Shown in pieces: positions 23,454 to 38,833 of a stretch of 64,000 nt of DNA. Source of the DNA: Roseovarius sp. THAF9 (lineage in GTDB: Bacteria; Pseudomonadota; Alphaproteobacteria; Rhodobacterales; Rhodobacteraceae); assembly GCF_009363715.1 (NCBI RefSeq), contig NZ_CP045404.1, positions 124,001 through 188,000 of the forward strand, written 5' to 3'. The position numbers were made by a program, and so were the translations under genes. The notes under the pieces were generated by a model. That model was not told the DNA's origin. It saw nothing but the letters and a program-made list of their open reading frames with translations, and ran no database searches. How positions within the stretch are numbered: the stretch's first letter is position 1; each line of letters starts with the position of its first letter.

Positions 23454-24419
23454 ATGATCATTGTTCCCGAGCGCGAGATTGCCGACCTGATGACCCGAGA
23501 AGCGGCGTTCGATGCCGTTGAAAAGGTGTTTGCCGCGATGGCGGCGGGTGACGCGTATAACTTTCCCGTCGTCCGAGAGGCGATCGGGCACGAAGATGCG
23601 CTTTACGGCTTCAAAGGCGGGTTCGATCAGGCGGGCCTGACGTTGGGACTGAAGGCCGGGGGCTATTGGCCCAACAACCTTGAGAAGCGGGACATCATCA
23701 ACCACCAGTCGACGGTGTTTTTGTTCGATCCCGATACCGGCAAGGCCAAGGCGATGGTGGGCGGCAACCTGTTGACCGCGCTGCGCACCGCTGCGGCCTC
23801 GTCGGTGTCGATCAAGCATCTGGCGCGCAAGGACGCCAAGGTGATCGGCATGGTCGGCGCGGGCCATCAGGCGACGTTCCAATTGCGCGCGGCGCTGGAG
23901 CAGCGGGATTTCGAGAAGGTGATCGGCTGGAATTATCACCCCGAGATGCTGCCCAATATCGAGAAGGTCGCCAAGGAAGCCGGCGTGGCTTTCGAGGCGG
24001 TCGAATTGGAAGGCATGACGGAGGCAGACGTGATCATCTCGATCACCTCGTCCTTTGACGCGACGCTGATGGCGGATCATGTCGGCGCGGGCTGTCACGT
24101 GGCCTGCATGGGCACCGACACCAAGGGCAAGCAGGAGGTCGAGGCGGCGCTGTTGCAGAAGGCGACGGTGTTCACCGACGAGGTGGCGCAGTCGATCAGC
24201 ATCGGTGAAGCGCAGCACGCGGTGGGCGAGGGCCTAATTACCGAAGGCGACGTGAACCAGATCGGCGCGGTCATCAACGGCACGCATCCGGGGCGCACCA
24301 GCGACGACGAGATCACGCTGTTCGACGGCACCGGCGTTGGCCTGCAGGACCTTGCCGTTGCGGCGAGCGTTGTGGACCTGGCGGTGGAGCAGGGCCGCGC
24401 GATCGAGGTGGATTTCTAA
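23454..24419 (+). CDS. bhcD: Iminosuccinate reductase
   Basis: BhcD (321 residues) belongs to the ornithine cyclodeaminase/mu-crystallin family. It reduces iminosuccinate to L-aspartate with a nicotinamide cofactor, so closing the cycle and regenerating the amino donor for BhcA. The Rossmann motif is VIGMVGAGHQATFQLRAAL, preceded by LTALRTAAASSVSIKHLARK. It begins 69 bases after bhcC. A strong terminator follows, so it is the last gene of the operon. Confidence 0.94.
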   Translation: MIIVPEREIADLMTREAAFDAVEKVFAAMAAGDAYNFPVVREAIGHEDALYGFKGGFDQAGLTLGLKAGGYWPNNLEKRDIINHQSTVFLFDPDTGKAKAMVGGNLLTALRTAAASSVSIKHLARKDAKVIGMVGAGHQATFQLRAALEQRDFEKVIGWNYHPEMLPNIEKVAKEAGVAFEAVELEGMTEADVIISITSSFDATLMADHVGAGCHVACMGTDTKGKQEVEAALLQKATVFTDEVAQSISIGEAQHAVGEGLITEGDVNQIGAVINGTHPGRTSDDEITLFDGTGVGLQDLAVAASVVDLAVEQGRAIEVDF

Positions 24420-24462
24420 GGCGGGTGTTTTGCCGCAGCAGAGGCCAAGGGTTGAGACGAAG

Positions 24463-24495
24463 AAGGCGCGGAGGAGACTTCGCGCCTTTTGTTTT
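24463..24495 (+). terminator. Terminator of the bhc operon
   Basis: A perfect 8-base stem (AAGGCGCG/CGCGCCTT) with a 10-base loop is followed by TTGTTTT. It lies 44 bases after bhcD and just ahead of the mobile block. Confidence 0.85.
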
Positions 24496-24597
24496 GGTCC
24501 AGGCGTGCGGGCGTAAGGTCTTGAAAAGGACGCGCCGGTGAGGCGCCCGCGCAGCACTCTGTGCCCCGAGGGGTAACACGTTCAATCAAAGGAATTC

Positions 24598-24622
24598 CAG
24601 TGGTGAGCCGTTCAGGAATCGA
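24598..24622. repeat. Eroded att-like copy of the tRNA-Lys 3' end
   Basis: Twenty-three of 25 bases match the start of the 50-base repeat at 26016 and 38755 (CAGTGGTGAGCCG, then CAGGAATCGA in place of CAGGATTCGA). It lies just before the dead integrase copy, the same order as in the intact element. It therefore marks the left end of an older insertion at the same tRNA. Confidence 0.65.
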
Positions 24623-24695
24623 TGGCCTCTATTCCGTACTTCCAAATTCGACTCGTTCTGCTTGCCGTGTGCCTGCCCTGAGCAATTAAACGAGC

Positions 24696-24900
24696 ATGCC
24701 CAACATCCGCTTCGCGAGATCTGGCCTTGACCGCATAGCGGCGTCAAACCGTGACACGATCTATTGGGATGCCGCTTTGCCGGGGTCTGGACGACGCGTC
24801 TAAACGAGCGGTGTAAAAAGCTTCGTTGTCCAATAGCGCAATCGACAGACTGGGCAGTCAAAGCGCGAGACACTGGGCCGCTGCGATCTACACCTCCAGA
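24696..24900 (+). pseudogene. Decayed N-terminal copy of the tRNA-Lys integrase
   Basis: The first 35 codons (MPNIRFARSGLDRIAASNRD onward) are nearly the same as the intact integrase at 26220, and the upstream bases match as well. A stop arises after GRRV where the intact gene reads GLRVKTSG. DNA similarity then continues in shifting frames to about 24890 and fades; catalytic domains are gone. It is a relic of a closely related element. Confidence 0.85.
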
Positions 24901-24969
24901 GGTCACGCGCAATGGCAAGGAACGCCGCCGTGAACGCGAATGCGAGGCCAAAGCTGTTCCAGGTCTGGG

Positions 24970-25633
24970 GTGTATTTGCGAGCGCGGTATAGGCGCGCCT
25001 CAGCGATGCGGTTAAAGGTTCCAGTGAAGCAACCGAAGAAGGGACGGCTCTGGCTGAACGACGGATCATGTGTCCGGCTGCGGCCGGAGTATCAGAACCA
25101 TGTCTGGAGCTACGCGTCGCCTGGCAGGCGATTGCGAAGCAATCTGCCGAGAAGGATTTTGTCCATTGCCGGACAGAGGACGGAAAGGTCTTCAGGACGC
25201 TCAACATCCTGGATGAACACAGCCGTGCGTGCCCGGCAATCAAGGTGAAGCGCAAGCTGAACTCAGGTGACGTGATCGATGCCTTGAGCGACCTGTTCAT
25301 CATGCGGGGCGTGCCGGCTTACATCCGGTCAGACAACGGCCCCGAGTTCGTTGCTCAGGCCGTCCGAGATTGGATCGGCGCGGTCTCGGCGCCAAGACCG
25401 CCTACATCGAACCCGGGTCGCGTTGGGAGAACGGGTACCGCGAGAGCTTCAACGCCAGGTTCCGAGACGAATTGCTCAACGGCGAGGTCTTCTACAGCCT
25501 GCGAGAAGCACAAATCCTGATCGAACAATGGAGGACACACTACAACACGAAACGCCCGCACAGTGCTCGAGGCTATCGCCCCCCGGCGCCAGAAACCATC
25601 GTCCAGATGGACCAGACGCCGGTCATGCACTAA
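24970..25633 (+). pseudogene. Frameshifted IS3-family transposase OrfB relic
   Basis: Three successive reading frames each give a conserved piece of an IS3-type OrfB: KQPKKGRLWLNDGSCVRLRP; then VKRKLNSGDVIDALSDLFI with YIRSDNGPEFVAQAVRDWI holding the second DDE Asp; then FNARFRDELLNGEVFYSLRE with YNTKRPHSARGYRPPAPET. At least two frameshifts and an internal scramble make it inactive. The last part closely resembles the fragment at 35409. The product ends at 25633 and IS-like end sequence follows. Confidence 0.88.
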
Positions 25634-25682
25634 CAATCAAACCGGACCACTCAGGTGGGGCTGATCAACCCCAGATGGTCGA

Positions 25683-25865
25683 TGGCGTGCTTATGACCGG
25701 GAAGAACTACTGTCCCGAGACAAGGCTAGCCTCGACCTTTTTTGGCTACGCGATGCCTCTATGACGGATCTTGAAAACCTTCCCGAGCCCGAGGTGCTGG
25801 CAGAAGAGATCATGGAGAATCTAAGGACCGCATTGGCGAGCTTCGAGGCCGTCTCGCTGCAGTAG
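25683..25865 (+). pseudogene. C-terminal fragment of a type I restriction-modification HsdM
   Basis: About 60 codons in one frame end in a proper stop and read as the far C-terminus of a type I N6-adenine methyltransferase: EELLSRDKASLDLFWLRDAS, then LENLPEPEVLAEEIMENL and a short helical tail. The pattern of KASLDIFWL followed by LPxPxxIAAEIVENL is diagnostic of HsdM. The 5' part has been lost at the IS relic, so the older element once carried a restriction-modification system. No hsdS or hsdR remains. Confidence 0.75.
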
Positions 25866-26015
25866 CGGCAACGAACTCGAATCAAGAATAAAAGGCAGTT
25901 ACTGCAGGCAATGATTAGCTTCCCGAACTGTAATTCATTGCGGTTATAAAAATCGGACACCAGCCGGACACGTCGGAACATCCTATTGCCAATTTTTTGC
26001 CTAAGTCTATGAAAA

Positions 26016-26065
26016 CAGTGGTGAGCCGTGCAGGATTCGAACCTGCGACCCACTGATTAAAAGTC
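26016..26065. repeat. Left attachment repeat of the tRNA-Lys island
   Basis: Fifty bases identical to 38755-38804, covering the 3' half of tRNA-Lys from the anticodon loop to three bases beyond CCA. The sequence diverges at once on both sides. The integrase start lies about 155 bases to the right. It is not a tRNA gene, since the 5' half is missing. Confidence 0.92.
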
Positions 26066-26219
26066 TTAAAGCTTCGCATTACAACTATTTCTATGTATCG
26101 CGACGCATTTGAATAACAATACTTATAGTAGTGCTTTACTCAATCGATGATTTCAATTCCGTACTTCCAAATTCGACCTATTTTGCTTACCTTGTGCTTA
26201 CCCAAGCAATTCAACGAGC

Positions 26220-27380
26220 GTGCCCAACATCCGTTTCTCAAAATCTGGCCTTGACCGCATACCGGCGCCAAACCGTGACACGATCTATTGGGATGACGCT
26301 TTGCCCGGGTTTGGACTGCGCGTAAAAACGAGCGGTGTAAAACGCTTCGTTGTCCAATATCGCAATCGACAGACCGGGCAGTCAAAGCGCAAGACACTGG
26401 GCCGCTATGGCCCCACGCTCTCGCTACACGCTGCGCGCGACATGGCCAGGAAGTTGCTTTCGGAGGTCGTCCGCGGGGAAGATCCGGTCACCATGGCGCG
26501 CGCGCTCCGCCACGCGCCAACGGTGCATCAACTTGCCGAACAGTACATGTCCGAACATGCCATCCCGAAAAAACGCCCCAGCAGCGTTCAAAACGACCGG
26601 TCAATGCTAGATCGCTACATATTGCCGAAGATGGGATCACTGCGCGTGCGGGACGTCACCCATGCGCATGTCCAGAAACTGCACAACACGATGCGCGAGA
26701 CCCCCTATCAGGCGAACCGGACGCTCGCCCTGCTGTCGAAAATGTTCGAACTTTCAATGCGCTGGGAGATGCGGGTTGACAATCCCGCCCGTGGCATCGA
26801 AAAGTTCGCCGAAGAAAAGCGGGACCGTTGGCTGTCCGGCGCTGAACTGAAGCGATTGCTATCTGCTTTGTCCGACCATCCAAACCAGATTGCGGCTGAC
26901 GCAATTCGCCTTCAGTTGCTTACGGGCGCCCGGATCGGCGAAGTCCTAAAGGCGCAATGGACCGATTTCGACCTCGATCGCGGTGTGTGGATCAAACCGT
27001 CGCACCACACAAAGCAGAAGCGGCGGGAGCATTTACCGCTCTCGGCGGCGGCCTGCGCGCTGGTGGCTGAGATGCAGGCATCGAGGACTGATCTCGGACC
27101 GTGGCTTATTCCCGGGCGTTCGCCTGACCAGCCCTACAAGGATCTTAAGGTGTTCTGGCGCTCTGTGACCAAAGCCGCCAGCCTAGAGAATTACCGCATC
27201 CACGATAACCGGCACACGCATGCTTCGCATCTTGTTTCCAGCGGCCTAAGCCTACCGATCGTAGGTAGGCTCTTGGGGCACACGAACCCGTTGACAACAC
27301 AACGCTACGCACATCTGGCCGACGATCCTTTGCGGCAGGCGGCGGAGGTCATGAGCAGGAAAATGAACGAAAGTTCTTAG
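26220..27380 (+). CDS. Tyrosine-type site-specific integrase
   Basis: A 386-residue P4-type integrase. An N-terminal DUF4102-like arm-binding domain (DRIPAPNRDTIYWDDALPGF) is followed by a core-binding domain (about 105-205) and the catalytic domain. The active site is complete: Arg238 in LLTGARIGEVL, a Lys in HTKQKRREHLPL, His328 and Arg331 in HDNRH, His354 in LLGHTNP and nucleophile Tyr363 in QRYAHL. The start is GTG. It is next to the left att repeat and is the likely agent of insertion into tRNA-Lys. The element could still be mobile if the right partners exist. Confidence 0.95.
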   Translation: MPNIRFSKSGLDRIPAPNRDTIYWDDALPGFGLRVKTSGVKRFVVQYRNRQTGQSKRKTLGRYGPTLSLHAARDMARKLLSEVVRGEDPVTMARALRHAPTVHQLAEQYMSEHAIPKKRPSSVQNDRSMLDRYILPKMGSLRVRDVTHAHVQKLHNTMRETPYQANRTLALLSKMFELSMRWEMRVDNPARGIEKFAEEKRDRWLSGAELKRLLSALSDHPNQIAADAIRLQLLTGARIGEVLKAQWTDFDLDRGVWIKPSHHTKQKRREHLPLSAAACALVAEMQASRTDLGPWLIPGRSPDQPYKDLKVFWRSVTKAASLENYRIHDNRHTHASHLVSSGLSLPIVGRLLGHTNPLTTQRYAHLADDPLRQAAEVMSRKMNESS

Positions 27381-27663
27381 AGAAAATCGACATCGACGAT
27401 TTCTGAATGCAGCGGTGAACTGGATTGCGCATAATGCGTTATCAATCATACCGAAGTGTTGCCATATGGAATCCAGCTGAACGTAATGGGCAAGTGAGAC
27501 ACTTAGCTTGTTTGCCACGATGACAATTTGAATATGCTTAATCCTTGTGCCGTGCGTGCTCTGTCCACTAAAAGTTCTCTTAACGAGGCTACGGTAGGGC
27601 GACACAGCTATACGCTTCCGCAGTCTGGATGTCGGCAAGAATTGTTCTAGGAACGAGGGATTT

Positions 27664-28428
27664 TTGAAAGTAGTTTTGCTAGCCGGCGGTTTGGGAACTC
27701 GTATCAGCGAGGAAACCCATGCCATTCCCAAGCCGATGATCGAAATCGGTGGCCGTCCGATACTGTGGCACATCATGAAAATTTATGGGGCGCACGGGAC
27801 GACGGATTTCGTGATCTGCTGCGGCTACAAGGGCTATGTGATTAAAGAGTACTTCGCCAACTACTTTCTTCACATGTCCGATGTCACCTTCGATATGCGC
27901 GACAACCAGATGCATGTCCATCGAAAGTCTGCCGAGCCGTGGCGCGTCACGCTGCTGGACACGGGTGAACACACGATGACAGGCGGTCGGATCCTGCGCG
28001 CCCGGGACTACATCGACGATACTTTCTGCCTGACCTACGGGGATGGCGTTTCTGACGTCGATATTTCCGCCCTGATCGCTCATCACAAGAACGCCGGGAC
28101 CGAGGCAACCGTCACAGCCATTCAGCCGACGGGACGCTATGGCGCGCTCGATCTCGCGGAGGATCGCGTGAAAGGCTTTGTAGAAAAGCCGAAAGGCGAC
28201 CGGCAGTGGGTCAATGGTGGCTTCTTTGTGTGCGAACCGTCGGTTCTCGACCGGATCGAAGGCGACGATATGCCGTTCGAGGCCGACCCCCTGACAGGTC
28301 TGGCGAGGGACCTGCAGCTTTCTGCGTATCGGCACGAAGGGTTCTGGTCCGCGATGGACACGCTGCGTGACAAGAACCAGCTTGAATCGCTCTGGGACAC
28401 GGGCGACGCGCCTTGGAAGATATGGTGA
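27664..28428 (+). CDS. rfbF: Glucose-1-phosphate cytidylyltransferase
   Basis: RfbF (254 residues) joins CTP and glucose-1-phosphate to CDP-glucose. The N-terminal nucleotide motif is [20 protein letters not shown], with [14 protein letters not shown] and [18 protein letters not shown] further on, all typical of this enzyme. Start is TTG at 27664 behind GAACGAGGGA; no ATG is nearby. A 283-base gap without recognisable genes separates it from the integrase and must hold the operon promoter. It is the first gene of a five-gene overlapping sugar operon. Confidence 0.95.
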
Positions 28429-29489
28429 CACCCATGCCCGATCCCGGGTTTTGGCAAGGGAAAAAGGTGCTTCTGACCGGGCACACCGGGTTCAAGGGAA
28501 GCTGGCTGATGCTGTGGCTGGAGAACCTGAAGGCTGAAGTGTTCGGCATGGCGCTGCCCTGCGAGACGATGCCTTGTTTGTTCGATCAGCTGTTTCCGGA
28601 CGGCCATCCGGGCCACCACATCGGCGACATTCGAGATTCGGCGCTGGTGAAACAGCGGATCGAACAGGTCCAGCCGGACGTGATTCTGCATTTGGCGGCA
28701 CAACCGCTCGTGCTGCGCAGTTATCACCACCCGCTGGAGACGTGGCAGACGAACGTGATGGGAAGCGCCCATATTCTTGACGCGATCAAGGGATGCGACC
28801 GGCACATTTCCGTCGTGATGGTCACGACCGACAAAGTTTATGAAAACCGCGAGTGGGTCCATGCCTATCGTGAAACTGATCGTCTGGGCGGGCACGATCC
28901 TTACAGCAGCAGCAAAGCGGCCTGTGAGCTCTTGGTGGACAGCTACCGCAAATCCTTCTTCGCCGACGCACCGGTAAGCATCGCCACCGCCCGTGCAGGC
29001 AACGTGATCGGGGGCGGAGACTGGGCAGACAACCGGATCGTGCCCGATCTTGTCAGGGCCGTTGCGCGTAGCGACGATCTCGAGGTCAGAAACCCGGAAG
29101 CGATGCGTCCCTGGCAACATGTGCTCGACCCGCTGGCGGGTTACCTGATCCTTGCCGAGAAACTGTGGCATGACGCCAGCCTCGCAGAGGGCTTCAACTT
29201 CGGACCTGACGTCGCGGACCAGCGGTCAGTTTGTGCGCTTGTCGAGGCTGCACTAACCCGCTGGCCCGGCACGTGGCACGATGCGTCCGACCCCGCGCAA
29301 CCCCACGAAGCGGGACGGTTGACGCTGACCACGGACAAGGCGCAAACCCGTTTGCGTTGGCGGCCCCGTTGGTCTTTCGATCAGGCGGTCGCCTACACGA
29401 TTGACTGGTATCGTGCCACGCATGAAGGTGCATCGCCACGTGATCTGAGCCTTGACCAGATCGCTGAATTCGCAAAGTCAGACACGTGA
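28422..29489 (+). CDS. rfbG: CDP-glucose 4,6-dehydratase
   Basis: RfbG (355 residues) is an NAD-dependent short-chain dehydrogenase-type enzyme that turns CDP-glucose into CDP-4-keto-6-deoxyglucose. The Rossmann motif is [13 protein letters not shown], and the catalytic Tyr and Lys are in [11 protein letters not shown]. Block [20 protein letters not shown] is diagnostic. The ATG at 28422 overlaps the rfbF stop and has GGAAG just ahead; an ATG at 28434 is the alternative. The 3' end overlaps the epimerase gene by 4 bases. Confidence 0.95.
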
Positions 29490-30034
29490 AGTTCACGCCG
29501 CTATCCCTTGACGGCGCCTTTCGCGTCGAAATTGAAAAGCGCGGCGATGATCGTGGCTTTTTCGCCAGGATGTTCTGCGAAGCCGAATTCGCGCAGCACG
29601 GTTTGGCAACGCGATGGGTTCAGGTGAACACCTCGTACAGCGTGGCAAAGGGAACCTTGCGGGGGCTGCATTTCCAGCGACCACCGAGCGCGGAGGCAAA
29701 GCTGGTGCGCTGCCTCAAGGGAGCAATTTTCGACGTAATCGTCGATTTGCGCGCAGGGTCCTCGACCTACGGCCAGCATGCAACCCTGCAACTTGACGAG
29801 CAGAACCGCGCGATGGTGTTCGTTCCACCGGGATTTGCCCACGGATTTCAGACACTTAGTGGGGATGCCGAGCTTCTTTATTTCCACTCCGCATCCTACG
29901 ATCCGCGTCACGAAGGCGGGCTTCATTATGCCGATCCTGAAATCGACATCGCTTGGCCATTGCCTCCCGTCCAACTTTCCAAGCGCGATCAGGGGTTTGT
30001 GTTCCTGACTGACCTGGAGCCCATTGCACTATGA
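29486..30034 (+). CDS. NDP-4-keto-6-deoxyhexose 3,5-epimerase family (RmlC-like)
   Basis: A 182-residue cupin enzyme of the RmlC family. It has the catalytic His block LRGLHFQRPP, the segment VDLRAGSSTYGQH, and the late FVPPGFAHGFQTLS. Given its place between a CDP-glucose dehydratase and a C-methyltransferase, the substrate is probably CDP-4-keto-6-deoxyglucose or its methylated form, and the activity may be a 3- or 5-epimerisation. Start and stop both overlap neighbours by 4 bases, so translation is coupled. Confidence 0.88.
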   Translation: MKFTPLSLDGAFRVEIEKRGDDRGFFARMFCEAEFAQHGLATRWVQVNTSYSVAKGTLRGLHFQRPPSAEAKLVRCLKGAIFDVIVDLRAGSSTYGQHATLQLDEQNRAMVFVPPGFAHGFQTLSGDAELLYFHSASYDPRHEGGLHYADPEIDIAWPLPPVQLSKRDQGFVFLTDLEPIAL

Positions 30035-31254
30035 TTTGTCGACACTGCCAGTCACCTTTGGATCTCGATTTCCTCAATCTCGGGCATGCGCCGCCCTCCA
30101 ATGCCTATCTCGACTCCGCGGCGCTGAATGCGCCGGAGAAGACATATCCGCTGCGTGTGAAAGTCTGCCGCAAGTGTCGGCTGGTCCAGACAGAGGACTA
30201 TGCCGGGGCTAAAGAGTTGTTCAGCAGCGAATATGCCTATTTTTCCTCCACCTCGCGCGGTTGGCTCGACCACGCCAAGCGCTTTGCCACTATGATCTCG
30301 GAGCGATTGGGACTGGACGGCGAAAGCCACGTGATCGAGGTGGCCTCCAATGATGGCTACATGCTGCGGAATTTCATCGCGGCGGGCATACCCTGTCTCG
30401 GGATCGAACCGACCGACAGCACCGCCGAGGCCGCCGAATCACTGGGTATCCCCGTCCTGCGTGAGTTCTTCGGCGAGAGGGTCGGTCGCCGACTGAGCGA
30501 AGAGGGCAAAGCTGCGGACCTCGTATGTGGCAACAACGTCTATGCGCATGTGCCTGACATAAACGACTTCACCCACGGCCTTGCCGCGGTGCTGAAGCCC
30601 GGCGGGGTCATTACCCTGGAGTTCCCGCACCTGTTATGCCTTGTCGAACACAACCAGTTCGACACCATCTATCACGAGCATTTCTCCTACCTGTCATTGC
30701 TTGCTGTATCGCGAATATTTGAAGCCGCCGGCTTGCGAATTTTCGATCTCGAGCACCTGCCGACCCATGGTGGAAGTCTGCGCGTATATGGCTGCCATGC
30801 CGATGCGCCCTTCGAAGCATCCTCGTCCGTGGGCATCTGTCTTGAAGCCGAACGCGCAGCGGGTCTGGACACAGACGACTATTACACCGCGTTCCAATCT
30901 CGAGCCGAAGCGGTCAAGAATGATTTGCTACGTTTTCTTTTGAAGACAGACGCAGACGGCAAGTCCGTCGCCGCCTACGGTGCGGCGGCCAAGGGTAATA
31001 CGCTGCTCAACTTTGCCGGTGTGAAACCCGATTTGTTGCCATTCGTCTGCGACGCCGCCACTGCCAAGCAGGGCAAGTACATGCCAGGCTCCCACATCCC
31101 AATCCTGCCGCCTGAGGCGCTCGATAAGAGACGCCCGGACTATATTCTGATTCTTCCATGGAACATCGCCGAGGAAGTCAAAATGCAACTGTCGCATCTG
31201 GCCGCCAAAGGCAGCCGGTTTGTGACTATGGTTCCGGAATTGAAGATCGCATGA
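30031..31254 (+). CDS. Sugar C-methyltransferase, SAM-dependent
   Basis: A 407-residue protein with the three-part build of NDP-sugar C-methyltransferases (TylC3/EryBIII type). The N-terminal zinc module has CRHCQSP and CRKCRLVQT. The SAM domain (about 90-190) has VIEVASNDGYMLRNF with an altered motif I, and GGVITLEFPHLLCLVEHNQF with the conserved EHFSYLS. The C-terminal domain has KSVAAYGAAAKGNTLLNF. Such enzymes put a methyl branch on C3 of a 4-keto sugar. The product is therefore probably a branched 6-deoxy sugar. It overlaps both neighbours by 4 bases. Confidence 0.9.
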   Translation: MICRHCQSPLDLDFLNLGHAPPSNAYLDSAALNAPEKTYPLRVKVCRKCRLVQTEDYAGAKELFSSEYAYFSSTSRGWLDHAKRFATMISERLGLDGESHVIEVASNDGYMLRNFIAAGIPCLGIEPTDSTAEAAESLGIPVLREFFGERVGRRLSEEGKAADLVCGNNVYAHVPDINDFTHGLAAVLKPGGVITLEFPHLLCLVEHNQFDTIYHEHFSYLSLLAVSRIFEAAGLRIFDLEHLPTHGGSLRVYGCHADAPFEASSSVGICLEAERAAGLDTDDYYTAFQSRAEAVKNDLLRFLLKTDADGKSVAAYGAAAKGNTLLNFAGVKPDLLPFVCDAATAKQGKYMPGSHIPILPPEALDKRRPDYILILPWNIAEEVKMQLSHLAAKGSRFVTMVPELKIA

Positions 31255-32360
31255 CCGCCTCTATCGCTTACACCAAGCCTTCGATCACCGAATTGGAGGT
31301 TTCCTATGCCGAAGACGCCGCACGGCACGGCTGGGGGCCGAAATGCTATGACTACATAATCCGGTTCGAGGCCTTGTTCCGTGAACACATCGGCACCTCT
31401 TTCGGAATCGCCACCTCGAGCTGTACGGGGGCGATGCAAATGGGTCTTAAGGCTATGGGCATCGGTCCCGGTGACGAAGTGATCCTTGCCGACACCAACT
31501 GGATCGCGACCGCCGCGCCCATAGTGCAGCTCGGTGCGACACCGATCTTCGTGGATATACTTCCCGACAGCTGGTGCATAGATCCCGACGCCACTGAGAA
31601 AGCGATTACGCCGCACACGCGCGCCATTGTCGCGACGCATCTCTATGGAAATCTTTGCGATATGGACGCTCTGCTTAAGCTGGCCAAACGTTACGGCATT
31701 CCCGTCATCGAAGATGCCGCTGAGGCCATTGGCGCCAGCTACCGTGAAAGTCCCGCCGGGTCGATGGGCTTGTTTTCGACGTTTTCATTTCACGGCACCA
31801 AGACCTTGACTACTGGCGAAGGTGGCATGTTCCTAACGTCGGACGGCGAGCTTTACGAAAAGGTTCTGACCCTTTCCAACCATGGGCGCGACCGGCAACA
31901 GAACAAGCAATTCTGGGCGGATGAGGTCGGCTACAAGTTCAAGATGTCGAACCTACAGGCCGCCTTGGGGTGTGCCCAGATGGAGCGGATCGCGGAGTTG
32001 ACGGACCGCAAGCGTGCGATCCTGCACGCATACAAGGCCGAACTGGCGGCGCTGAACGGCATCTCAATGAACCCAGAGCCCGATCACGTGCTCAGCGGGG
32101 CCTGGATGCCCACAGTGGTGTTCGACGAAAGCCTTGGCATCCGGCGCGACGCGATCCTGTCCGTGTTCAGGGCAGCACAAATCGACGCGCGCGTCTTCTT
32201 CTATCCGCTGTCGTCACAGCCGATGTTTCAGCCTGTTCCGGACAATGAGACCGCCTGGTCAATCTGCGAGCGCGCAATCAACCTGCCGAGTTTCCACGCC
32301 ATGACCGACGCCGACATTGCACGGGTGTGCAAAGTGATTCGGGACCTGCTGGCTGTCTAG
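31251..32360 (+). CDS. DegT/DnrJ/EryC1/StrS sugar aminotransferase
   Basis: A 369-residue PLP fold-type I enzyme of the NDP-4-keto-sugar aminotransferase family, related to perosamine synthases. The PLP-binding Lys is in SFHGTKTLTTGEGGMFL, so it is a true aminotransferase rather than an RfbH-type dehydrase, in which that Lys is replaced. Other markers are EDAAEAIGASYRES and FKMSNLQAALGCAQMERI. The ATG at 31251 overlaps the methyltransferase stop by 4 bases. It should add an amino group, likely at C4, to the CDP-sugar made by the upstream genes. Confidence 0.92.
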   Translation: MTASIAYTKPSITELEVSYAEDAARHGWGPKCYDYIIRFEALFREHIGTSFGIATSSCTGAMQMGLKAMGIGPGDEVILADTNWIATAAPIVQLGATPIFVDILPDSWCIDPDATEKAITPHTRAIVATHLYGNLCDMDALLKLAKRYGIPVIEDAAEAIGASYRESPAGSMGLFSTFSFHGTKTLTTGEGGMFLTSDGELYEKVLTLSNHGRDRQQNKQFWADEVGYKFKMSNLQAALGCAQMERIAELTDRKRAILHAYKAELAALNGISMNPEPDHVLSGAWMPTVVFDESLGIRRDAILSVFRAAQIDARVFFYPLSSQPMFQPVPDNETAWSICERAINLPSFHAMTDADIARVCKVIRDLLAV

Positions 32361-32530
32361 ACGCCTGAGGCGTGCCTAGCCGAAAAAAGGGAACATGATG
32401 ATCGTCGGCACGTTCTCGACAATGTTGACACTTTAGCTGAAGGTAATTTTCAATCTGGGCGCGCTGCAAGGGTCGATATCGGTAGCAATGGGGCGCAGAT
32501 TGAAACCTGAAGGGCTGGCTTGAAGAAAAG

Positions 32531-33214
32531 ATGGCAAAGGAACGAATACTGCTCTGGGGCGGCCGGTCGCAGGCGCGTGTCGTCGATGCGCACCTGAGAC
32601 TGCAAGGCCGTCGGGTCGGGTATATTTTCGACTACAGCCTGGACGAACCACAATTCGAGACTTCCGCGGAGTTCCTGAACACCCCCGAACACCTTTCGCG
32701 TGTTCTGAGCCGTTGCACCGGCTTTGTTGTTTGCATCGGCGGAAATCTTGGCGCGCAGCGTCGGATGATCTCGAAACACCTGATGCGGGAGTTCGATCTG
32801 GAACCTGTCGAGGTGATTTCCGACACTGCGATCATTGATCCCGAAGCAACCGTCGGAAAGGGCGTCCAGATCATGTCTGGCGCGTGCATAGGCGTCGCCA
32901 CGACCATTTCGGACTTCGCTATCGTGAACACGAACGCCACTGTCGATCACGAATGCCTGGTTGGCCCCGGGGTGCATGTCATGGGGGCCGCTGCCGTCGC
33001 AGGATGCGTAACGATCGGCGCCGATGCGACGATCGGAACCAACGCGACCGTTTTGCCAAAATTGACGATTCAATCGGGCGCACAGGTTGGCGCGGCGTCA
33101 CTGATCCGGCGCGATGTGTCCGAAAATAGTGTCGTTGTCGGCGTTCCTGCGCGTCACCTCAGAACGGAGACGCGGATTGTCGATACGTCGGTCGTTGCGA
33201 AACTCAGGGGCTGA
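32531..33214 (+). CDS. Sugar O/N-acetyltransferase, NeuD/PglD family
   Basis: A 227-residue protein with an N-terminal Rossmann-like PglD domain (ILLWGGRSQARVVDAHL) and a C-terminal left-handed beta helix of hexapeptide repeats (AIIDPEATVGKGVQIMSGAC through IGADATIGTNATVLP). The catalytic-type His is in VDHECLVGPG. These enzymes acetylate the amino group of 4-amino-6-deoxy sugars, which fits the aminotransferase 170 bases upstream. Its end overlaps the convergent CmcI-like gene by 11 bases. Confidence 0.88.
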   Translation: MAKERILLWGGRSQARVVDAHLRLQGRRVGYIFDYSLDEPQFETSAEFLNTPEHLSRVLSRCTGFVVCIGGNLGAQRRMISKHLMREFDLEPVEVISDTAIIDPEATVGKGVQIMSGACIGVATTISDFAIVNTNATVDHECLVGPGVHVMGAAAVAGCVTIGADATIGTNATVLPKLTIQSGAQVGAASLIRRDVSENSVVVGVPARHLRTETRIVDTSVVAKLRG

Positions 33215-33956
33215 CGCACTTCAGATAGCCGCCCGGAGACGACGACATGACGAGCTTGCCATTGATTTCCGGATCAATCTGGAAGCGATCGGTTTCCGCC
33301 AGATATTCATTTCTTGCCGCCAGGGGCTCGTTGCCCTGGTACCAATGCTTCGAACGGTTCTTGGGGGCCTGATCCTCCGTCCAGTGGCCAACCACCGTAT
33401 CGGCAACGACCAGGTAGCAGCCGGCTGTAACCATCGCGCCGTAGGCACGGCATTCATCGAGAACATGCTTGCGGCTGTGATCGCTGTCTAGGACCGCCAT
33501 GACGCGGGCGCCCTCGGGAATTTCAGAGCGCACCTGTTCCAGAACGCCTTCGTCCACGGACCCACCTTCGATAAGCGTCACGCGTTTCGACATGGGATGG
33601 TTCTCGATGGTCTCGCGATTATGCGCCCGGATATCTACGTCCACGCCGATGACCTGGCCTTTGCCGATCATTTCCAGCATGGAGGCCATGAAGAGAACCG
33701 AGCCGCCGCGCGCGACGCCGGTTTCGATGATCACGTCCGGCTTGGTTTGCCAGATCACCTCCTGCGTGGCCATGATGTCTGCCGGAAGCTGGATGATCGG
33801 AACGCCCATCCAACTCCACAGGTAGGGATAGTCGTATTCATTCAACGCAAGCATCAGGTCATCCGACTTCCTGTAGACCCCGGATGCTTCGCCAAGCCTG
33901 GCGGCGTTCCGCTTCTGCTTTTCCGCGAACTCCTCACGATCGTCTGGATGTGACAT
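33204..33956 (-). CDS. CmcI/cephalosporin hydroxylase-family methyltransferase
   Basis: A 250-residue protein of the CmcI/rhamnosyl O-methyltransferase family. The SAM-binding motif is IIETGVARGGSVLFMASML, with the metal-type acidic site in MAVLDSDHSRKHV. It may O-methylate a sugar of the surface glycan. The ATG at 33956 has AAAGGA 8 bases upstream; the longer reading frame lacks a site. It lies 31 bases after the glycosyltransferase in the same direction, so both form a leftward operon that converges on the sugar operon. Confidence 0.85.
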   Translation of the reverse strand: MSHPDDREEFAEKQKRNAARLGEASGVYRKSDDLMLALNEYDYPYLWSWMGVPIIQLPADIMATQEVIWQTKPDVIIETGVARGGSVLFMASMLEMIGKGQVIGVDVDIRAHNRETIENHPMSKRVTLIEGGSVDEGVLEQVRSEIPEGARVMAVLDSDHSRKHVLDECRAYGAMVTAGCYLVVADTVVGHWTEDQAPKNRSKHWYQGNEPLAARNEYLAETDRFQIDPEINGKLVMSSSPGGYLKCVSP

Positions 33957-33987
33957 CAAGTACTGTCCTTTGCTGAGTAATGCCGAA

Positions 33988-35223
33988 TCATTGTGCGCGG
34001 GCTTTTTTTCGACCCAAGAATTTTTTCCAAGCCTGGCTGCGCGGCAACTTGTCTTCAATCACCATTCCCAGATCTTCCACCAAAAGCTGATCGCAGCATT
34101 GCGCTGCGGTGTAGATCGTATTCTGCTGTCCGAACTGGGTGTTTATGCGAAAGCTGGAGAGTTTCGATCTGTTTTTGGCCCATGTTACCGAGAGCTTTCT
34201 CGCATACCAGAGCCATTGGCTTTTGGCCTTTTCAAGTGCTTTTTCACATCCTAGGATGCGTGCGTGCTGTTCGAGCGAAGACATGATGCTTTCCGAAGTC
34301 TCGGGGTCTTTTTTGATCGCTTCAACAAGCACGGTGACGTACCATGAACGGTAATCGAGTGATATCGGCACCTCTGGAAAGTGATGTTTCACGGTTTCAA
34401 GAGTACTCAGAAATTCTAGCGCAGTCGACTTGGAGATGGGCATCACGTCGTCAACGGTGTCAAGGCGCGTCTCGGACTTGAACTTTGATTGCTCCATGCT
34501 TTGCGCGTTTTTGGTTCCCTGTGCGCTGAAACTTCCGCCGTTGCTTGCCGGACTGTGACCATTGATCGAGAAAGCATGGTTGCAGTGCAGGAACCTTCCA
34601 CCAAGCTGGGTCGAGCGAAAACTGACGAAAAGATCTGGACTGCGTGCCAACATGCACACCCCGTCTTGTCGCGCAATTCTTCCTAGGTAATCACGTGACA
34701 TACAGCCGTGGTATAGTTGAGGTAAGGGATGGAAGAGATCGAGACGCCCTCTCTCGAGTGCATGGAGTCTGTCGGTTGCATCCATAAGCGCAGGCTTGCC
34801 GAATAGCTTGCTTCGAACGAGCCGAACGCCTCCAACTCGGCTTCCATACCCGTCGACAGGCCAGCCATATACCGGGAAATCCCAGCTTAGTGCGTCAGGA
34901 CGATGTACTTCCAAGATTTTACGAAGGAACGGGAACTGCCCGGGGATGATGCCGTCGTCATCCCCGAAATAGATAACGTAGTCGCCGGTGCTTTGATGAA
35001 GGGCAAATTCGAAATTCTGGCGCATCGACAGGCGCGCCCCAGTATTGACGTAGCGGACCCGTGGATCCTGCGCTTCGGATACAACCTTTTGGGTTTCATC
35101 GACTGAGGCATTGTCGCTCACCAAGATCTCGATGTTGGTATCAATGATGGCTGTTGCCGTCGCTAGCGAATGACGCAGATACTGGGCACGGTCCCGAGTA
35201 GGAATAACAATTGAGATAAGCAT
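33988..35223 (-). CDS. Family 2 glycosyltransferase
   Basis: A 411-residue GT-A glycosyltransferase. The N-terminus is LISIVIPTRDRAQYLRHSL, followed by EILVSDNASVDET and the metal-binding DxD in VIYFGDDDGIIPG. The C-terminal 170 residues are helical and charged with no known match. The start ATG at 35223 directly precedes the family's first strand. The gene looks clearly richer in A and T than the host genes, suggesting recent transfer. It probably moves the modified sugar, or a partner, onto a surface glycan. Confidence 0.9.
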   Translation of the reverse strand: MLISIVIPTRDRAQYLRHSLATATAIIDTNIEILVSDNASVDETQKVVSEAQDPRVRYVNTGARLSMRQNFEFALHQSTGDYVIYFGDDDGIIPGQFPFLRKILEVHRPDALSWDFPVYGWPVDGYGSRVGGVRLVRSKLFGKPALMDATDRLHALERGRLDLFHPLPQLYHGCMSRDYLGRIARQDGVCMLARSPDLFVSFRSTQLGGRFLHCNHAFSINGHSPASNGGSFSAQGTKNAQSMEQSKFKSETRLDTVDDVMPISKSTALEFLSTLETVKHHFPEVPISLDYRSWYVTVLVEAIKKDPETSESIMSSLEQHARILGCEKALEKAKSQWLWYARKLSVTWAKNRSKLSSFRINTQFGQQNTIYTAAQCCDQLLVEDLGMVIEDKLPRSQAWKKFLGRKKARAQ

Positions 35224-35408
35224 TTGTGGCACCACAGTCTAGTATTTCGATTGCATTAAAGCTTTGACATTGCGTCCGCAACACTAGGGTGCTGAAGCAT
35301 AAGGCAGCTTTTGGTGAAACGACGTTCTGTGTCAGTCTTGAGACTTTAGGAACCCGATAACATGTATCTGAACCTTAGCAGCCGGATCTGACTGGTACAG
35401 TCTGATCA

Positions 35409-35795
35409 TTAGTGCATTGTCGGCCTGGGTTCCATCGTGGTGATAGTTTCCGGCGCAGGTGGTCGGCACCCCAGGGCGCTATGCGGTCGCTTTGTGTTAT
35501 AGTGTTCTCTCCAGCGCTCAATGATGATCTGCGCTTCTCCGGGCGAGTAGAAGATTTCGCGGTTCAGCATTTCGTCGCGGAAGCGGGCATTAAAGCTCTC
35601 GATGTAGCTGTTTTCCCAAGGGCTGCGCGGCTTAATGAACGTGGTCTTGGCGCCCACCGACTCGATCCATGCCCGGACATCCTTAGCAACGAATTCAGGG
35701 CCATTTTCGCTGCGGACCAATGCTGGTCGCCCACGCAGGATGGAGAGATCGGTGAGGGCATCAATCACGTCGGTCGAGTTCAGCTTTCGCTTCAT
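35409..35795 (-). pseudogene. C-terminal fragment of an IS3-family transposase OrfB
   Basis: 128 codons correspond to the last third of OrfB: VKRKLNS-like start, VRSENGPEFVAKDVRAWI with the Asp of the DDE triad changed to SENG (Glu), SFNARFRDEMLNREIFYSP, and YNTKRPHSALGCRPPAPET. The N-terminal two thirds are missing. It is related to the relic at 24970 but lies in the opposite orientation, so the two bracket the sugar genes. Confidence 0.88.
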
Positions 35796-36013
35796 CCGTA
35801 GCCGGTCCGCTTCCAGCCAAACGGCGCAATGTCACGGTTTTCGCGCTCAAGTCACGGCTTTCCCTTCACCCCTAATAAAAATCAATAGCGTAACGGATTA
35901 TCTGTCACGCCTTTCTACAAGGCGTCCACAGAAGTCCGGTGCATAGAGGTGCATCTTTGCAGCAAGAAGCGGATCGCAACCCAGCGACCCGTCGTGAGGC
36001 AAGGAGCAAGATC

Positions 36014-36217
36014 GTGGCAAAGCTCACGCAAGATCAACTGGCCGCGCGATGGCACATGTCGCCGCGCACGCTGGAACAGTGGCGCTGGCTCGGGAAGGGG
36101 CCGAGGTTTCTCAAGATCGGGGCGCGCGTTCTCTATGACGAAGATGTCATCGAGGACTTCGAGGCTGGTCAGGCCTGCCAGAACACGCATGGGCCCATCG
36201 GGTCGGAGGGCGCGTGA
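36014..36217 (+). CDS. Excisionase-like helix-turn-helix protein
   Basis: A 67-residue MerR/Xis-type HTH protein: LTQDQLAARWHMSPRTLEQW, then WLGKGPRFLKIGARVLYDED. I chose the GTG at 36014 because AAGGAG lies 7 bases ahead; an upstream frame to 35939 lacks such a site. Proteins like this control excision or replication genes on integrative elements. The stop shares one base with the next HTH gene's ATG. Confidence 0.75.
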   Translation: MAKLTQDQLAARWHMSPRTLEQWRWLGKGPRFLKIGARVLYDEDVIEDFEAGQACQNTHGPIGSEGA

Positions 36218-36465
36218 TGGCGAAGAAGTTTCCGGGAAACAGGATCAAGTCGCACCGCATCTACACGGTCTGGGAGATTTCAGATCTCCTGGGCTGTCAC
36301 AAGCAGACGATTATCCGCTGGATCAAATACCACGGTCTGATGGCCTACACGAGCACCAAACCCTGGCTGATCGAGGGGCATGACCTAAAGGCGTTCCTCG
36401 GCGCGCGGCAATCGAAGGCGCGCTGTAAACTCGCGCCGCACCATTGCTACTGCCTGGGTGTCTAA
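36217..36465 (+). pseudogene. Helix-turn-helix gene cut by an IS
   Basis: The first 80 codons read as a typical mobile-element HTH protein: KFPGNRIKSHRIYTVWEISD, LGCHKQTIIRWIKYHG, then TKPWLIEGHDLKAFLG. Relatives continue for some 50 residues past the Cys-rich CKLAPHHCYCLG. Here the frame runs into the IS end (TGTCTAAC) at about 36459 and stops after one more codon. The missing 3' part is not found on the far side of the IS pair. Confidence 0.7.
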
Positions 36466-36995
36466 CGTCAGCACCTACCGGACAGATTTAGGTGTTTGAG
36501 GAACGGAGGATTTCTGGTTCATCGAAGCCATAATGGAGCGAAGATGAACAAGAGATCCGGAACATCCAAGGATGCTGCTGACAAGCTTGTTAGGGGTATC
36601 AAGCGTAAGACCCGCAAGCACTACTCGGCGGAGGAGAAGATCCGCATCGTGCTTGCCGGGATGCGGGGCGAAGAAAGCATAGCGGCCCTGTGCCGTCGTG
36701 AAGGGATCGCTGAGAGCCTTTATTACAGCTGGTCGAAGGAGTTTCTTGAGGCTGGGAAGAACCGGCTGGCGGGTGACACAGCCCGTCAGGCGACAGCTCC
36801 CGAGGTCAAGGAACTGCGCTCTGAGGCAGCCGCGCTGAAAGAAGTGGTCGCGGAGCTGACACTGGAGAACAGGCTGCTCAAAAAAAGCACGTTCGGGGAT
36901 GGGGAGGACGACGCATGAGATACCCAGCCTCGGAGAAGCTCGAGATCATTCGGACAGTCGAAGCCTCGCATTTGCCGGTCAGGCGGACCCTGACC
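36459..36995 (+). mobile_element. Partial IS3-family copy, left end only
   Basis: It begins with the IS end TGTCTAACGTCAGC and contains all of orfA and the first 27 codons of orfB, then stops abruptly at 36995. Every base is the mirror of 37970-38506 in the full copy. It abuts the other end of that full copy without spacer. Confidence 0.88.
36544..36918 (+). CDS. IS3-family transposase OrfA, copy in the truncated IS
   Basis: A 124-residue OrfA from ATG at 36544 (MNKRSGTSKDAADKLVRGIK), with a helix-turn-helix in EEKIRIVLAGMRGEESIAAL and a C-terminal leucine-rich helix (ELRSEAAALKEVVAELTLEN). It is identical to the OrfA of the full copy. OrfB behind it is cut after 27 codons, so this copy cannot make transposase but could still make the DNA-binding part. 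Confidence 0.85.
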   Translation: MNKRSGTSKDAADKLVRGIKRKTRKHYSAEEKIRIVLAGMRGEESIAALCRREGIAESLYYSWSKEFLEAGKNRLAGDTARQATAPEVKELRSEAAALKEVVAELTLENRLLKKSTFGDGEDDA

Positions 36996-37069
36996 TGTCC
37001 GTCTTCAGAGTTTTTCGGACAAGTCGTTTGTTTTGGTAACGGAGGCTCTGGTTCGGTTTCTGTTTGAGT

Positions 37070-38050
37070 TTAGGCGACCGCGGCTTTGTGCTGCAACCGG
37101 CGCTTTCGGATTGTCTGTTTCTTGATCTCCTCTCTCATTTTCAGGATCGTCCGACCCCGACCGTGGTAGACGTCAGCCGGCGTCAGGTTATCCAGGCTCT
37201 CGTGGTATCGCCGAGTGTTGTAGTATCCGACGAAGTCGCCGATCTGGCGTTCAAGATCCCCCGGCAGATAGTAGTTCTCCAGCAGAACCCGGTTCTTCAT
37301 GGTCTGGTGCCAGCGTTCGATCTTGCCCTGGGTCTGTGGGTGGTGCGGCGCTCCGCGGACGTGATCCATACCTTTGGTATCGAGGTAGTCGGCCAGGTCG
37401 GCCGCAACGTAGGACGAGCCGTTGTCGCTGAGCAGCCGGGGCTTGTGAACGACTGTCGCATGAGCACAGCCCGAGGCCTCCAGCGCCAGATCCAGCGTGT
37501 CCGTCACATCCACGGCCTTCATTGTCGTGCAGAGCTTCCACGCGATGATGTAGCGGCTGTAATCGTCGAGGATCGTGCTGAGATAGAACCAGCCCCAACC
37601 GATGACCTTGAGATAGGTGAAGTCGGTTTGCCAGAGTTCGTTGGGCCGAGTTGTCTTGTCCCGGAACTCATCGGCGGCACGGATCACCACATGGGCCGGA
37701 GCCGTGATCAGGTCCTGGGCCTTGAGAATGCGGTATGCCGAGGACTCAGATACAAAATACCGTTTCTCATCGGTGTATTTGACCGCCAATTCCCGTGGCG
37801 TCAGATCCTCATGATCCAGCGCGAACTCAACGAAGGCGTCGCGGATCTCGTCCGGGATGCGGTTCCACACCGCCCGAGGCCGCGGGGACGTGTCACGCAA
37901 AGCGTCAACGCCGCCATCGGCCCACCGCGCATACCACTGGTAATAGGTGCTGCTGGGAATGCCGAGCATGGTCAGGGTCCGCCTGACCGGCAAATGCGAG
38001 GCTTCGACTGTCCGAATGATCTCGAGCTTCTCCGAGGCTGGGTATCTCAT
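37070..38050 (-). CDS. IS3-family transposase OrfB
   Basis: A 326-residue DDE integrase-fold transposase. Catalytic residues are visible: Asp in LWQTDFTYLKV, Asp in LLSDNGSSYVAADLAD and Glu in GKIERWHQTMKN. The N-terminal HTH (KLEIIRTVEASHLPVRRTLT) is intact. Its ATG overlaps the orfA stop by 4 bases. A frameshift fusion with OrfA, usual in the IS3 family, may also occur. The gene appears functional. Confidence 0.93.
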   Translation of the reverse strand: MRYPASEKLEIIRTVEASHLPVRRTLTMLGIPSSTYYQWYARWADGGVDALRDTSPRPRAVWNRIPDEIRDAFVEFALDHEDLTPRELAVKYTDEKRYFVSESSAYRILKAQDLITAPAHVVIRAADEFRDKTTRPNELWQTDFTYLKVIGWGWFYLSTILDDYSRYIIAWKLCTTMKAVDVTDTLDLALEASGCAHATVVHKPRLLSDNGSSYVAADLADYLDTKGMDHVRGAPHHPQTQGKIERWHQTMKNRVLLENYYLPGDLERQIGDFVGYYNTRRYHESLDNLTPADVYHGRGRTILKMREEIKKQTIRKRRLQHKAAVA

Positions 38051-38421
38051 GCGTCGTCCTCCCCATCCCCGAACGTGCTTTTTTTGAGCAGCCTGTTCTC
38101 CAGTGTCAGCTCCGCGACCACTTCTTTCAGCGCGGCTGCCTCAGAGCGCAGTTCCTTGACCTCGGGAGCTGTCGCCTGACGGGCTGTGTCACCCGCCAGC
38201 CGGTTCTTCCCAGCCTCAAGAAACTCCTTCGACCAGCTGTAATAAAGGCTCTCAGCGATCCCTTCACGACGGCACAGGGCCGCTATGCTTTCTTCGCCCC
38301 GCATCCCGGCAAGCACGATGCGGATCTTCTCCTCCGCCGAGTAGTGCTTGCGGGTCTTACGCTTGATACCCCTAACAAGCTTGTCAGCAGCATCCTTGGA
38401 TGTTCCGGATCTCTTGTTCAT
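38047..38421 (-). CDS. IS3-family transposase OrfA
   Basis: A 124-residue HTH protein identical to the copy at 36544. ATG at 38421 follows GGAGCGAAG. The longer frame from a TTG at 38469 lacks a ribosome-binding site. With OrfB it forms the transposase of the full IS. Confidence 0.9.
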   Translation of the reverse strand: MNKRSGTSKDAADKLVRGIKRKTRKHYSAEEKIRIVLAGMRGEESIAALCRREGIAESLYYSWSKEFLEAGKNRLAGDTARQATAPEVKELRSEAAALKEVVAELTLENRLLKKSTFGDGEDDA

Positions 38422-38754
38422 CTTCGCTCCATTATGGCTTCGATGAACCAGAAATCCTCCGTTCCTCAAACACCTAAATCTGTCCGGTAGGTGCTGACGT
38501 TAGACACCCGACAGCTGCTTTGGTTTGATGCCGTCACACCAATCAAGCTGTTTGCCACTACGGCTTCGCTGCGCTGCTGTTCTGTATCAAACGATTGTCG
38601 GTTCACTTGCCAAAACCAGGGCTGGCTCGCGGGGGCACTTCTTATGACTTGCCGCTAGTTGCCAGCAGGGCTCAAGGATCTTCAAAATAATGCGCCCTAT
38701 TTGCGCCCTACACACGGCGCGCAACTTACATGATGTCCGTTAAGTTTTTGATTT

Positions 38755-38804
38755 CAGTGGTGAGCCGTGCAGGATTCGAACCTGCGACCCACTGATTAAA
38801 AGTC
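38755..38804. repeat. Right attachment repeat of the tRNA-Lys island
   Basis: Identical 50-base partner of 26016-26065, here as part of the intact tRNA-Lys gene. The 250 bases between the IS and this site hold no gene that I recognise. Confidence 0.92.
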
Positions 38805-38833
38805 AGTTGCTCTACCAACTGAGCTAACGGCCC
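38758..38833 (-). tRNA. tRNA-Lys (anticodon TTT)
   Basis: A complete 76-base cloverleaf on the minus strand: acceptor GGGCCGT/ACGGCTC with one G-T pair, D arm GCTC-AGTTGGTA-GAGC, anticodon arm ACTGACTTTTAATCAGT (anticodon TTT), T arm with GTTCGAATC, and encoded CCA. Its 3' end is the integration target of the neighbouring island, and the gene has been kept intact. Confidence 0.97.

Follow-up and report, generated by a model that had tools for sequence, protein, structure and literature searches.

The 64,000-nt stretch of the Roseovarius sp. THAF9 genome analysed here (hereafter the window; contig NZ_CP045404.1, positions 124,001 to 188,000) carries, at 26016-38804 of its own numbering, a unit enclosed by perfect repeats of a tRNA-Lys 3′ end. 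A preliminary description had presented this unit as a defined and possibly still mobile 12.7-kb element. In our analysis it is probably a chimera of two tRNA-Lys-targeting elements, fused at an insertion sequence (IS), and is probably immobile by itself. The repeat cores and the integrase are indeed intact, but 26016-38804 does not hold together as one coherent element: its two ends carry differing site pairs, the right module found in its relatives is lacking where the IS stands, and older inserted DNA extends outwards to 24598. Mobility is thus now the less likely reading.

The left border, the right border and the integrase region comprise the following features:
26016-26065, plus strand: left attachment (att) site, the 3′ half of tRNA-Lys (core search, 50-nt identity)
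38755-38804, plus strand: right att site, inside tRNA-Lys (core search, 50-nt identity)
38758-38833, minus strand: intact tRNA-Lys(TTT), with dapF next to it (ARAGORN; dapF by PF01678)
26220-27380, plus strand: intact tyrosine integrase of 386 amino acids (aa) (PF13356, PF14659/PF22022, PF00589)
26185-26202, plus strand: GCTTACC-TTGT-GCTTACC, presumed arm sites of the resident integrase

Two traits of a tRNA-targeting island are present: the tRNA 3′ end is directly repeated at the borders, and an integrase lies inside one of them. The repeats at 26016-26065 and 38755-38804 are identical over 50 positions, as originally reported, with a mismatch at the adjoining base on each side; the further statement that they diverge at once holds for these bases, but a weaker match beyond the outer (left) edge of both copies prolongs the repeat to 64 nt at 92% identity. 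An intact tRNA-Lys(TTT) was recognised by ARAGORN at the right copy and none at the left, in agreement with the reading of the left copy as a 3′ half. With up to three mismatches allowed, the 47-nt att core matched twice in the window versus never in 100 shuffles, and the whole 4,560,251-base genome likewise contains only two matches, both at the island borders. The repeat is accordingly not one of those found at many unrelated places, which had been named as an observation that would speak against an island. The G+C content of the element (56.8%) is below that of its flanks (62.7% and 64.5%), as had been judged by eye. In combination, these results support insertion into the tRNA-Lys 3′ half via a tyrosine integrase.

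The resident integrase, found where it had been placed, with its start 155 nt inside the left repeat, retains arm-binding, core-binding and catalytic domains. The GCTTACC pair upstream of it is the sole one in the window at a threshold of at least 12 of 14 letters. A family-level search of 394 genomes returned the integrase in nine (E ≤ 1e-120), the window's own among them. The relatives from this search, together with G006 and G027, make up a set of ten with integrase identities of at least 54%, relatives at 49% or below being excluded. The GCTTACC pair was found with a period of 11 between the left repeat and the integrase in all ten (one site is mismatched in G027), and the left repeats were recognised by eye as halves of tRNA-Lys, tRNA-Arg(TCT) or tRNA-Thr(TGT). 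Likewise, all eight relatives in which both ends could be read (G006, G094, G288, G386, G325, G424, G446 and G336) carry the pair also at the tRNA end, albeit with a mismatch in one of the G288 sites, and in the seven measured it stands 48-49 nt from the tRNA. Roseobacter locus L100, which has the same position as G325's on a contig of equal length, was counted with G325 as one genome in this comparison. Two relatives were excluded from the right-end count: G095, where integrase and tRNA are on separate contigs and the anchor was not found, and G027, where a pair is present at tRNA-Arg on a contig other than that of the integrase. The plasmid collection added one 75%-identical integrase, with a left GCTTACC pair, on a replicon of Ruegeria conchae; as the 38 kb retrieved there did not show the right end, it was left out of the counts. 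On this replicon (NZ_CP081104.1; L167, 494000-532000) a relaxase and MobC are annotated about 22 kb from the integrase, and some members of the GCTTACC family could be mobilisable if these genes lie inside the element.

The right end of the window's unit departs from this pattern. Its features are:
38507-38754, no strand assigned: right tail of 248 nt, 52% G+C, presumably from a different tRNA-targeting element
38691-38710, plus strand: TGCGCCCTA-TT-TGCGCCCTA, presumed arm sites of a different integrase type

No GCTTACC pair is present here; TGCGCCCTATTTGCGCCCTA is found instead, at an equal spacing of 48 nt. With at most one mismatch, TGCGCCCTATTTGCGCCCTA occurs in four of the 394 genomes, namely the window's own, G128, G200 and G130. 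The match in G128 lies 57 nt from an intact tRNA-Asn, that in G200 adjoins what appears by eye to be a tRNA-Asn 3′ half, with a tRNA-Thr farther along, and that in G130 has another spacer and no tRNA within the 3-kb locus. G200 additionally contains a related pair, GCGTCCTATACGCGTCCTA, about 60 nt before an integrase match that is 29% identical to the resident integrase, and this pair recurs 45 nt away from the tRNA-Thr just mentioned. Since pairs of the TGCGCCCTA type stand beside tRNA sequence elsewhere and a related pair stands before a distant integrase, this sequence type seems to act as the end code of another system. A drift of the right arms away from GCTTACC was considered and rejected, because both halves of the pair would need to change identically and the new sequence adjoins tRNA sequence in two other genomes. 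Right ends are nested in the G200 stretch (L141, 3001-10269): it ends at tRNA-Thr and encloses a tRNA-Asn half that has an end-site pair of its own, apparently another case of accretion.

The spacing of such pairs was examined more broadly at the tRNA-Lys site of the same genus. Out of 35 same-genus relatives surveyed for empty sites, 33 were retained, G005 being excluded for lack of a dapF match and G030 as its contig starts at the tRNA; together with the two window junctions these gave 35 tRNA-adjacent sequences. Exact 8-nt repeats at a lag of 11 were found beside the tRNA in seven of the 35, one of them the window's right end, versus at most two at any other lag from 4 to 30. Two of three further settings gave lag 11 in 8/35, against at most 3 and 2, respectively, at other lags. 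The sequence of the lag-11 repeat varies among genomes (GCTTACC, TGCTTCCG, TGTCCCCC, GGTGACC, GTGAAAGC, TGCGCCC), as expected if the pairs are arm sites of different integrases. From their position and conservation, and by analogy, the period-11 pairs are presumed to be integrase arm sites.

The presumed break in the unit itself is marked by a cut gene and a double IS:
35939-36217, plus strand: helix-turn-helix (HTH) gene 1 of the backbone (68% to G288 HTH1; PF12728 below cut-off)
36214-36465, plus strand: HTH gene 2, ending at the IS after residues HHCYCLG (PF12728; 103 of the 182 aa of the G288 protein)
36459-36995, plus strand: truncated inverted IS copy (540-nt perfect inverted repeat)
36997-38506, minus strand: complete IS3-family element, 1510 bp, adjoining the presumed foreign right end

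The relatives reveal what is missing. Their right module runs in the order HTH1, HTH2, a 350-aa tyrosine-recombinase-like protein, a 616-aa QatC/QueC-like protein, a 270-aa protein and the right end, with HTH2 measuring about 180 aa and containing a cysteine cluster. With queries taken from G288, six backbone genes were found in all seven fully read relatives (G006, G094, G288, G386, G325, G424 and G446), although the recombinase and QatC/QueC-like genes of G446 match only in part. The last three genes of the module (second recombinase, QatC/QueC-like and 270-aa) lie at L133 9459-13923 in G288 and in matching parts of L067, L132 and L134-L140. The window lacks three of the genes (second recombinase, QatC/QueC-like and 270-aa) and has a fourth, HTH2, in truncated form, so that its order at the break is HTH1, the first half of HTH2, the IS, 248 nt and the tRNA. 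In the window's whole genome there was no match to the 270-aa gene at E ≤ 1e-25 or to the QatC/QueC-like gene at E ≤ 1e-70. At the same thresholds the 270-aa protein was found in 23 of the 394 family-level genomes, with a GCTTACC pair at 11 of the 23 loci, and the QatC/QueC-like protein in 2 of 385 genomes in a class-level search; the 270-aa protein had no Pfam, NCBIfam or PADLOC match. The genome holds 12 full-length, near-identical copies of the IS, the window's included, and six of these, again including the window's, directly adjoin a truncated copy of that element at a distance of 0-6 nt, which suggests recurrent self-targeting or adjacent deletions. An IS that has a truncated inverted copy next to it, interrupts a gene on one flank and borders foreign DNA on the opposite flank fits the trace of an IS-adjacent deletion. 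In a comparison by eye of two sequences of the second recombinase, the tyrosine position of the G288 protein is a histidine in the G006 copy, and this recombinase of the right module may be altered.

The left repeat had been taken as the outer edge of the inserted DNA, which is not the case, as a decayed third att copy lies farther out, followed by older inserted sequence:
24598-24622, plus strand: third, decayed copy of the tRNA-Lys 3′ end, the former outer att and the chromosome/island boundary (repeat family D4)
24681-24882, plus strand: older integrase of the same family, of which a broken 5′ end is left (183 of 202 positions as in 26205-26406; stops in frame)
25068-25633, plus strand: transposase remnant that we take to be IS3-type, with rve domains, split over two frames (PF00665, PF13683)
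25701-25865, plus strand: last 54 aa of a DNA methyltransferase, presumably HsdM-like, remnant cargo of the older element (tblastn)
25954-25970, plus strand: CGGACA pair, period 11, presumed right-end arm sites of the older element

The methyltransferase remnant matched 33 plasmid records by tblastn (best 71% identity, E 1e-16), annotated as 'class I SAM-dependent DNA methyltransferase'. The CGGACA pair stands 48 nt from the tRNA-derived sequence at 26019. Chromosomal homology to G006 covers window positions 24300-24622 (79%) and stops there, at a place where G006 has an intact left repeat of its own. The third att, the broken integrase and the end of the G006 homology at this place together argue that an older element occupied the site first. 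This older remnant (24598-26015) itself pairs a decayed GCTTACC-family left end with a different right-end pair, CGGACA, and an end mismatch of this kind seems to have arisen twice at the tRNA-Lys site. Passages of PMC5704250 describe tandems that arise when one element decays and the next integrates into the att site of the first, and include a tRNA-Lys example.

The tRNA-Lys/dapF site is an accretion hotspot. The two genes adjoin in all 33 same-genus relatives read, and none of these offers an exact empty tRNA-Lys site. Many of the fetched stretches were ended by contig ends, and bhcBCD is included only for G006 and G012. G006 has the bhcD/tRNA-Lys/dapF neighbourhood with a different, 19-kb island, a 65%-identical integrase and the same repeats. 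In G012, bhcBCD is followed by 2.7 kb of other DNA and then by tRNA-Lys-dapF, and the window's element is absent. The comparison proposed in the preliminary description, a search for an empty site between bhcD and dapF, is thus answered in part: G012 lacks the element, but the 2.7 kb of other DNA keeps it from being an exact empty site. In G014 the repeat occurs again 15 kb from the tRNA-Lys, and a GCTTACC right end at a tRNA-Lys half (L111, 19857; L075, G014) is an orphan at this hotspot: the approximately 36 kb fetched around it gave no match to any of the six backbone genes (tblastn, E ≤ 1e-8).

A sequence of events can be proposed that accommodates these features. A GCTTACC-family element would enter by recombination of its attP with the tRNA 3′ half, element DNA restoring the tRNA. 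An earlier element of this kind would have inserted first, leaving 24598-26015 as its rubble, and a younger one would have supplied the left end, the integrase and, as we infer, the sugar cargo described below. A deletion beside the very active IS3-family element would then have removed the 3′ half of HTH2, the right module and the native right end, joining the remainder to the terminal 248 nt of another tRNA-Lys-targeting element, one whose integrase used TGCGCCCTA-type arm sites. As the elements share the tRNA core, such a fusion keeps perfect att repeats even though the ends belong to different recombination systems. The resident integrase should still be able to bind both cores and the left arms, but not the right arms, and with the right arms unbound self-excision is predicted to fail or to be very weak. 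The sugar operon would in that event be stranded as chromosomal cargo, although other recombinases, or a second integrase in trans, could still recombine the 50-nt repeats.

Several points weigh against this account. Intact 50-nt cores and an intact integrase could suffice for excision if the right arms are dispensable, and so could another integrase acting in trans. Neither a flanking target duplication nor an intermediate attests the deletion, and both the arm-site role and the failure of excision are predictions from sequence. Under the strictest of the four spacing settings (9 of 10 letters), lag 11 exceeds lag 12 by only 3 versus 2 of 35. The older remnant is also mismatched, so that two such events are needed, and two mismatched units could hint that mixed ends are tolerated. 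Finally, in G028 the HTH pair belongs to a unit that has a CGGACA pair but none of the module genes, and the fusion point could therefore sit anywhere from the integrase to the IS. The HTH genes were for the same reason rejected as proof of membership in the GCTTACC family, G028 having the same pair in another kind of unit.

The exact att repeats, an integrase with all its domains and a whole HTH gene 1 would also suit an intact mobile 12.7-kb element, in which the integrase recombines the 50-nt cores and HTH gene 1 serves as directionality factor. We consider this unlikely, since the right end is without the GCTTACC pair seen in 8/8 relatives, the end genes of the right module (270-aa and QatC/QueC-like) were not found in the genome at the thresholds given above, and HTH gene 2 is severed by the IS. 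Alternatively, the unit could be a passive composite moved by another element's integrase acting on the shared cores, a mode reported for decayed elements beside which others have accreted. Accretion and cis-mobilizable elements (CIMEs), with a tRNA-Lys example, are treated in passages of PMC5704250, use of the site by a second integrase system is implied by the foreign right pair, and the genome contains further, distant integrases. Yet the left end carries no TGCGCCCTA arms, and a second integrase thus faces the mirror image of the problem that confronts the resident one; this explanation appears somewhat less probable still than the intact element.

A tyrosine integrase combined with HTH genes is a layout found in phages too, and relatives of the integrase, of whatever degree, turn up in 1,104 phage records, which raises the question of a prophage or phage-satellite remnant. 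All 1,104 are below 60% identity, however, and the top-ranked is 33% identical. Viral contigs, searched in a way that detects only close relatives, yielded no close relative of the integrase, and no phage structural domain was seen among the scanned proteins of the window or of the relatives, PHROGs not being searched. Such an origin is very improbable. The IS-fused chimera thus remains our favoured explanation.

The cargo lies between the integrase and the HTH genes:
27664-28428, plus strand: glucose-1-phosphate cytidylyltransferase, RfbF type (TIGR02623, 438 bits, above cut-off)
28413-29489, plus strand: cytidine diphosphate (CDP)-glucose 4,6-dehydratase, RfbG type (TIGR02622, 483 bits, above cut-off)
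29486-30034, plus strand: nucleoside diphosphate-sugar 3,5-epimerase, RmlC type (PF00908, TIGR01221)
30031-31254, plus strand: sugar C-methyltransferase (PF08421, PF08484)
31158-32360, plus strand: DegT/DnrJ/EryC1 aminotransferase, its true start probably the ATG at 31251 (PF01041)
32531-33214, plus strand: NeuD/PglB/VioB-like acetyltransferase (TIGR03570, 155.9 bits versus a cut-off of 160.8; PF00132)
33204-34058, minus strand: RMNT/CmcI-type O-methyltransferase (PF04989)
33988-35235, minus strand: family 2 glycosyltransferase (PF00535)
35409-35795, minus strand: IS3-type transposase remnant (PF13683)

The genes from the cytidylyltransferase to the aminotransferase overlap as a set and are followed by the acetyltransferase, with the O-methyltransferase and glycosyltransferase on the opposite strand. 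These domain matches agree with the surface-sugar operon and glycosyltransferase recognised earlier, and, judging from the gene families, their products would make, methylate and transfer a CDP-linked amino-deoxy sugar with C-methyl and acyl groups, destined for a surface polysaccharide. In four relatives part of the cargo was scanned, and it is different in each, comprising CRISPR I-E genes in G094, a BPTD_3080-type restriction enzyme accompanied by a type III-like methyltransferase in G288, a type IIG enzyme in G386, and other genes in G006, e.g. a methyltransferase, an AraC-type regulator and an L,D-transpeptidase.

In sequence text, perfect att repeats together with an intact integrase usually pass as proof of a mobile island, and the present case indicates that they can mislead: a shared tRNA core lets a fusion of two elements keep flawless repeats around incompatible ends. 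Reading the presumed arm sites offers a cheap test of coherence for islands.

The locus is a decayed, accreted tRNA island and as such of a known kind. It resembles tRNA-targeting islands with tyrosine integrases in its insertion into a tRNA 3′ half, its direct repeats, its end-proximal integrase and its cargo of atypical composition, and differs from them in that its ends bear different presumed arm sites and its backbone is incomplete. With CIMEs and site-specific accretion, to the extent that these are set out in passages of PMC5704250, it shares att sites at both ends and decayed elements kept between them, stacked at a tRNA gene; unlike the CIMEs described there it has an intact integrase, and one end is foreign. 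No relaxase, mobilisation or type IV secretion domain, as expected of integrative and conjugative or integrative and mobilisable elements, was found among the scanned window proteins, smaller open reading frames not being scanned. The 616-aa protein of the parent family matches QatC of qatABCD over about 350 residues (PADLOC, 196 bits), whereas its 216 bits fall below the NCBIfam cut-off of 280, the protein is absent from the window, and QatA, QatB and QatD were not found among the G288 proteins scanned.

A further likeness is to the GCTTACC family, represented by the eight relatives, with which the window shares the integrase (55-78% identical), the left end, the HTH pair and the class of tRNA target; absent from the window are the genes for the second recombinase, the QatC/QueC-like protein and the 270-aa protein, as well as a GCTTACC pair at the right end. 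Its cargo is a sugar operon, whereas three of the four part-scanned relatives carry CRISPR I-E or restriction genes. No description of the parent family, or of an element combining QueC-like and tyrosine-recombinase proteins, was noticed among the literature matches listed. We regard it as an evenly balanced proposition that the window holds a broken member of an undescribed, Rhodobacteraceae-type tRNA-targeting family, with GCTTACC arms at both ends, a fixed tRNA-side module whose second recombinase is perhaps catalytically altered, and cargo in which whole defence systems or surface-sugar operons are swapped, and that at this site end modules of different integrase systems can be exchanged around a constant tRNA core. 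The relatives for their part point to a family of integrative elements in which a constant QatC/QueC-like end module is combined with swappable, often defensive cargo.

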